64,000 nucleotides of DNA from Botryosphaeria dothidea (lineage: Eukaryota > Ascomycota > Dothideomycetes > Botryosphaeriales > Botryosphaeriaceae). The notes below the pieces were generated by a model that searched no databases, was not told the origin of the DNA, and saw only the letters and a program-made list of their open reading frames with translations. Shown in pieces: positions 10,643 to 10,794 of the stretch. The stretch lies in the NCBI GenBank assembly GCA_011503125.2, contig WWBZ02000009.1, positions 434,001 through 498,000 on the forward strand, given 5' to 3'. How positions within the stretch are numbered: the first letter of the stretch is position 1; each line of letters begins with the position of its first letter. A program made the position numbers and the translations under genes.

Positions 10643-10647
10643 AAAAA
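10643..10647 (-). terminator. Pol III terminator of the tRNA-Pro gene
   Basis: On the coding strand, TTTTT follows 4 nt after the last base of the tRNA acceptor stem (CTTC then TTTTT). This is the normal position and sequence for RNA polymerase III termination and argues that the tRNA gene is live. Confidence 0.75.
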
Positions 10648-10686
10648 GAAGGGTCTTGCCGCGGATCGAACGCGGGGCCTCTCGCA

Positions 10687-10702
10687 AGCAACTCAGGGTG
10701 TG
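10687..10702 (-). other. Canonical tRNA intron (position 37/38)
   Basis: A 16-nt intron after the G that follows anticodon AGG. It begins CACACCCTG and its CCCT can pair with the AGGG of the anticodon, giving the bulge-helix-bulge shape cut by the tRNA splicing endonuclease. Ordinary for fungal tRNA genes. Confidence 0.8.
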
Positions 10703-10721
10703 CCCTAAGCGAGAATCATAC

Positions 10722-10777
10722 CTATTTAGTTGTTAGAATGAGTTGTTGTCGGTGTTGAGATGTCATGATGAACTTAC
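10722..10777 (-). other. Spliceosomal-type intron inside the tRNA D-loop
   Basis: 56 nt on the minus strand, starting GTAAGTTCATC and ending TTCTAACAACTAAATAG. It therefore has a consensus 5' donor GTAAGT, a consensus branch site CTAAC 11 nt before the end, and a TAG acceptor. Length and signals equal those of protein-gene introns in this window. It separates G18 and G19 of the D-loop. The position is not where tRNA introns normally occur in fungi. Confidence 0.75.
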
Positions 10778-10794
10778 CACTAGACCACAAGACC

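Follow-up and report, generated by a model that had tools for sequence, protein, structure and literature searches.

Can a nuclear tRNA gene be interrupted outside its anticodon loop by an intron of the kind that the spliceosome removes? Canonical introns of eukaryotic nuclear tRNAs lie between positions 37 and 38 and are processed by tRNA endonuclease and ligase. The initial annotation of the window (the whole 64,000-nt stretch of Botryosphaeria dothidea DNA analysed here) claimed that a tRNA-Pro(AGG) gene carries, in addition to such an intron, one of spliceosomal type in its D-loop. Direct sequence reading and script mapping confirmed the gene, at 10651-10794 on the minus strand (Table 1). 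Of the span first proposed, 10652 to 10794, the start is right but the end falls one base short, the true end being the discriminator base C73 at 10651. The rest of the proposed anatomy held: the 56-nt insert with its splice signals, the retained anticodon-loop intron (whose boundaries were set manually, not by a tool), the fully paired acceptor stem, and the A box, B box and terminator. The A box survives the insertion because its last G doubles as the intron's opening base, as had been suggested.

Table 1. Features of the interrupted tRNA-Pro(AGG) gene, in window coordinates.
Feature	Position	Strand	Basis
5' exon, tRNA-Pro(AGG) positions 1-18 (acceptor 5' strand and 5' half of D-arm)	10778..10794	-	sequence reading, script mapping
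56-nt spliceosomal-type intron at the G18/G19 junction, GTAAGT...CTAAC...TAG	10722..10777	-	sequence reading, script mapping
CTAAC, branch-point-like, 10 nt from intron 3' end	10732..10736	-	coordinates derived from script mapping
Middle exon, positions 19-37, anticodon AGG	10703..10721	-	script mapping
Ordinary 16-nt anticodon-loop (37/38) intron	10687..10702	-	script mapping
3' exon, positions 38-73	10651..10686	-	script mapping
A box TGGTCTAGTGG; final G is base 1 of the intron	10777..10787	-	script mapping
B box GTTCGATCC, intact in the window copy	10663..10671	-	script mapping
TTTTT, Pol III terminator-like run	10643..10647	-	sequence reading, script mapping

Five placements of the insert are equivalent in that splicing yields an identical product, and only one of the five has GT...AG ends. 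After splicing, the gene is recognised by ARAGORN as tRNA-Pro(agg), with acceptor, anticodon and T stems fully paired. Run without introns, ARAGORN called no tRNA at the window gene; with introns allowed, it named a tRNA-Ser(gct) with a 72-nt intron. Interrupted tRNA genes of this type can be misannotated, and they may be commoner than thought because the program missed or misnamed this one.

The window gene is one of many. The genome searched, a 51.7-Mb assembly in 78 contigs and the only fungal genome in the comparison, holds at least 16 distinct interrupted tRNA genes with 20 inserts, covering eight isoacceptors and four amino acids (Pro, Ala, Asp, Arg); the numbers of genes and introns are lower bounds. 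One window protein is consistent with a Botryosphaeria relative: among the best 120 of 7918 matches it shows 99% identity to a protein of Botryosphaeria dothidea and 95% to one of Macrophomina phaseolina. Seven inserts lie in the D-loop, twelve in the T-loop and one at position 9/10, and at the GT...AG placement the exact sites are 9/10, 18/19, 19/20, 55/56 and 57/58. A BLAST-type search with the window locus gave six matches at five places, all of them tRNA-Pro genes: Pro-AGG with the D-loop insert (L002, L003), Pro-AGG without it (L004) and Pro-TGG with it (L005). In L002 and L003 the insert is at the same site as in the window gene, and a Pro-TGG and a Pro-CGG gene are interrupted too, which is more than chance would give. 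A pattern built on the Pro arms, one mismatch allowed, had eight matches, seven of which are tRNA genes (four AGG, two CGG, one TGG); five of these seven have D-loop introns, and L003 (Pro-AGG) and L059 (Pro-CGG) carry one in the T-loop (57/58) as well. Four of the seven lie within 36 kb of one contig (G000:C12:1451326-1487195), as an intact AGG gene, an intact CGG gene, a CGG gene with three introns and a TGG gene with two.

The other amino acids follow. The Asp-GTC arm pattern matched eight places, seven of them tRNA genes, four with a 57/58 intron. The Ala-TGC pattern matched four; two of these are tRNA genes, each split by an intron at 55/56 and one of them by the 9/10 intron too. Additional patterns led to two distinct Ala-CGC genes and one Arg-TCT gene, and two Ala-AGC genes have 19/20 introns, one of them also an intron at 57/58. 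Second copies of Ala-CGC_2 and Arg-TCT on contig C78 resemble assembly duplicates, and each gene was counted once. On a wider scale, the 3-kb locus pairs L031/L033, L103/L105 and L104/L106 on C36 and C78 are identical, and the distance between the members of a pair stays close to 885.7 kb; C78 thus seems to repeat part of C36 collinearly (as a haplotig or assembly duplicate) and inflates gene counts. A tRNA-family search, which scored only 63 of 1497 candidates, had 62 matches, 46 of them outside contigs C14 and C26 (taken as mitochondrial); among these 46, one, the Ala-TGC gene L056, is interrupted in the T-loop, by an intron at 55/56. The same genome has a tRNA-Lys copy (L055, G000:C58:2826308-2826373) that lacks part of its T-arm and retains the acceptor, and is probably a pseudogene.

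Raw pattern counts are no evidence in themselves, because most patterns match no more often than their reverse (forward vs reversed: 9 vs 18, 8 vs 9, 13 vs 13 and 24 vs 28). A match was therefore counted only where a tRNA could be read around it. We examined 16 of the 24 Arg-TCT matches and five of the six for Ala-AGC (the remaining one shares its word with L139). Judged by eye, the matches at L060-L063, L065, L073-L075, L078, L079, L084, L091, L092, L095-L098, L101, L104, L106, L107, L129, L131-L134, L137, L139 and L140 are not tRNA genes. A BLAST-type query made of concatenated yeast tRNAs yielded no candidates. With Rfam cmscan, L001-L005 gave nothing at E<=1, a result that is uninformative because the intact Pro-AGG gene L004 was missed as well; its sole tRNA match in six further loci, in L093, was to a neighbouring gene, and ten other weak matches were all below the gathering scores of their families. 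Prokaryotic and viral contigs, in collections without fungal genomes, held no comparable split tRNA: a plain D-loop word matched 19 viral contigs, none with a tRNA continuation by eye, and stricter patterns matched none.

The inserts form a class of their own. All 20 are 50-61 nt long with GT...AG ends, and in each a branch-like motif precedes the 3' end by 8-13 nt (11 CTAAC, 5 CTAAT, 3 CTGAC, 1 TTAAC). Their 5' ends read GTAAGT (11), GTAAGA (4), GTGAGT (2), GTATGT, GTAAGG and GTTAGT (one each), and six end in AAG. For sixteen, a shift of a few bases leaves the product unchanged, and each of the 20 has exactly one GT...AG placement. Fifteen surfaced without any requirement for splice signals at that site, while the search pattern demanded the 5' splice signal for the other five. 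The canonical introns of the same tRNAs are different. In the set of 21 genes (16 interrupted, 5 uninterrupted), the anticodon-loop introns are 13-87 nt long by manual boundaries; only one of the 21 has a GT...AG placement, none has a branch motif and none has both. The longest belongs to Arg-TCT (L136, 87 nt), and long anticodon-loop introns also occur in Gly-GCC genes (L046, L052, L053), which span 118-137 nt.

The likeness in length to protein-gene introns, also part of the original description, is borne out: 22 candidate mRNA introns have a median of 55.5 nt (45-100 nt allowed). These candidates came from the window and 93 loci (347 kb) through interruption of reading frames, and controls with nonsense signals yielded 4 and 1. 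The set is small and was picked by the same signals, with a YAG end required, and only length was compared; CTGAC is present in 17 of the 22, vs mostly CTAAC in the tRNA introns. An attempt with longer frames in the window alone gave 21 candidates vs 16 and 13 in controls, and a score filter left three. Runs of four or more T occur in 2 of the 20 tRNA introns vs 3 of the 22 candidates, and depletion of T-runs is thus no guide to whether Pol III transcribes them.

Could these introns instead be cut by the tRNA endonuclease, their GT...AG ends being a coincidence? D- and T-arm introns are reported for the nucleomorphs of cryptophytes and chlorarachniophytes and for Cyanidioschyzon merolae, and those of Guillardia theta, of 3-24 nt, are ascribed to the splicing endonuclease (PMC4090602). 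Those tRNA genes, like the present ones, can hold more than one intron in these arms, but the introns described here look spliceosomal and some bear a B box. A crude strict-register count of the central helix of a bulge-helix-bulge does not tell the two classes apart: new introns form 1-4 of 4 pairs and canonical ones 0-4. The Pro D-loop inserts reach three of four pairs, and four of four in Pro-TGG, with G-U counted, which would suit the endonuclease, whereas the T-loop junctions form only one or two of four and the predicted minimum-energy fold of the window precursor has, by eye, no bulge-helix-bulge at the D-loop junctions. Together with a position other than 37/38 and the combination, in 20 of 20, of GT...AG ends, branch-like motif and narrow mRNA-like length, this makes cutting by the endonuclease highly improbable, and argues for removal by the spliceosome.

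As to the internal Pol III promoter, D-loop introns are placed so that the A box's final G either opens the intron or lies ahead of it, and a consensus A box starts at position 8 in 15 of the 16 interrupted genes, the exception being Ala-TGC_2, which has the 9/10 intron. The T-loop introns interrupt the native B box (GTTCRANNC), which is kept in 4 of the 16 genes; the remaining 12 have a B-box-like motif in the intron, and the motif is found in 12 of 12 T-loop introns, 4-15 bases in. It is one base off the strict consensus in four of them (Pro-AGG_3, Asp_3, Asp_4, Arg-TCT). For statistics we excluded three T-loop introns (Ala-CGC twice, Arg-TCT), whose search patterns demanded the motif. The core RWTCRA is present in all nine others (four Asp, two Pro, two Ala-TGC, one Ala-AGC) vs 1 of 22 mRNA-intron candidates (Fisher 5e-7, with copies that are not independent and perhaps represent three or four origins), and in one of the eight introns located in the D-loop or at 9/10. 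The strict nine-base consensus is found in 6 of 9 vs 1 of 22 (p 0.0007); the figure for shuffled introns is 8%. A simple tandem copy of the T-arm was considered as its source and rejected, similarity beyond the B-box core not being evident by eye. Downstream, a run of at least four T lies within 100 nt in 16 of 16 genes; in the two Ala-AGC genes it is at +35 and +43, and the terminator of Ala-AGC_1, at +43, is only T4.

Are the interrupted genes still in use? The initial annotation had left room for a newly silenced tRNA, and had proposed counting other intact tRNA-Pro(AGG) genes; pattern and BLAST-type searches found one. Pro-CGG also has one uninterrupted copy and Asp-GTC three, so the inserts in these isoacceptors need not be spliced for survival. 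Insertions might accordingly have silenced redundant genes while intact copies do the work. According to a review (PMC4090602), D- and T-arm insertions in eukaryotic tRNA genes mostly affect one of many synonymous genes, which are therefore supposed to be pseudogenes, and the acceptor mismatch of our Arg-TCT gene points the same way. The exons argue otherwise. All 21 spliced genes are recognised by ARAGORN as tRNAs with the expected anticodon, and four have a single mismatched pair each: 6-67 in both Ala-TGC genes, 2-71 (acceptor) in Arg-TCT and 49-65 in Asp_4.

Yeast tRNA-Ala likewise has U-U at 6-67. The exons of the three interrupted Pro-AGG genes are identical (72/72), while their D-loop introns have diverged (34/59, 41/59 and 36/67 identical aligned columns). 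The 120-nt flanks of the window gene align with those of the other two no better than shuffles; against the intact L004, its downstream flank scores 18.0, marginally above the shuffle maximum of 17.5. Double changes that conserve pairing across introns occur at 5-68, 7-66 and 49-65 in Ala-TGC and at 5-68 in Ala-CGC; there is another at 50-64 in Ala-AGC, a pair of genes of which just one is interrupted in the T-loop. Both Ala-TGC genes found are interrupted, as is the one Pro-TGG gene found. It is plausible that Ala-TGC and Pro-TGG decoding needs splicing, and only plausible because the patterns, which allowed one mismatch to one sequence, may miss divergent genes and because wobble by other isoacceptors could cover the codons. 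Every copy retains its splice signals, and the T-loop introns retain B boxes. With exon identity and stem covariation the interrupted genes look alive, and we consider such silencing very unlikely.

How did the introns arise? Three pairs of genes (Pro-AGG_3/Pro-AGG_4, Pro-CGG_1/Pro-CGG_2 and Asp_3/Asp_5) have 5' flanks that are alike, scoring above 300 shuffles, and 3' flanks that are not. The partners also share their 37/38 introns, and the new introns are exactly absent from one of them. In both Pro pairs the D- and T-loop introns are missing together with the 37/38 intron kept. Their joint loss would fit copying of a precursor caught after the spliceosome and before the tRNA endonuclease; independent gains would fit too. 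The initial annotation favoured a mobile, introner-like origin, and recently active elements of this sort might have hit tRNA genes as they hit other places, a matter of origin only and compatible with spliceosomal removal. Several positions and isotypes are affected, as such activity would predict. Alignments reach z>4 in 15 of 190 intron pairs, some across isotypes (6.5 for Asp_1 with Ala-AGC_1, 6.2 for Asp_2 with Ala-CGC_2), values inflated by the shared B box and branch motif. However, the introns of paralogues have diverged, no target-site duplication was seen by eye, and the BLAST-type search with the window locus, which skips very common words, found no high-copy family of near-identical introns and no near-identical 56-nt intron outside tRNA-Pro genes. 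That search is not decisive, but it leaves the introner origin unsupported, and we regard it as unlikely.

The reading that best accommodates these data, to which we give a probability of about 87%, is that spliceosomal (U2-type) introns reside outside the anticodon loop in working nuclear Pol III tRNA genes. The dual-machinery version of the original proposal is thus the favoured one, and it extends from one gene to 16 genes and 20 introns. From the sequences we infer transcription, splicing machinery and order of steps as follows. Pol III, directed by the A and B boxes, would transcribe the gene in full. D-loop introns, beginning at the end of the A box, would leave it intact, and T-loop introns, which wreck the native B box, would provide their own a few bases into the intron. 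The spliceosome would then excise the 50-61-nt intron in the nucleus, allowing the D and T arms to fold and pair. End processing and export would come next, followed by tRNA endonuclease and ligase acting on the 37/38 intron.

There are precedents for parts of this arrangement. The U6 snRNA genes of some fungi have spliceosomal introns, and are likewise Pol III genes; unlike a tRNA, U6 is itself part of the spliceosome, and we know of no promoter element inside its introns. Spliceosomal introns also occur in the nuclear rDNA of some ascomycetes (a 1993 paper cited in PMC11782384, judging by its title, reportedly described an mRNA intron in 18S rDNA). There too, filamentous ascomycetes have introns of mRNA type in genes for structural RNAs, but these are Pol I genes organised in tandem repeats, not tRNA genes. 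Among the matches listed in a search of the open-access literature, which mostly leaves out subscription papers, none described a spliceosomal intron in a nuclear tRNA gene.

In the textbook division, tRNA introns belong to a protein endonuclease and mRNA introns to the spliceosome, with its close ties to Pol II. Working tRNA genes with spliceosomal introns, if confirmed as such, would cross this divide. They would link translation directly to the activity of the spliceosome, and would include Pol III genes that outlive the loss of their B box through a spare one in the intron. We lean, without great confidence, towards the broader view that in a whole fungal lineage much of the nuclear tRNA gene set may have come to rely on the spliceosome, with up to three introns per pre-tRNA removed by two unrelated machines in a fixed order, T-loop introns supplying the B box, and the decoding of some codons dependent on the spliceosome.
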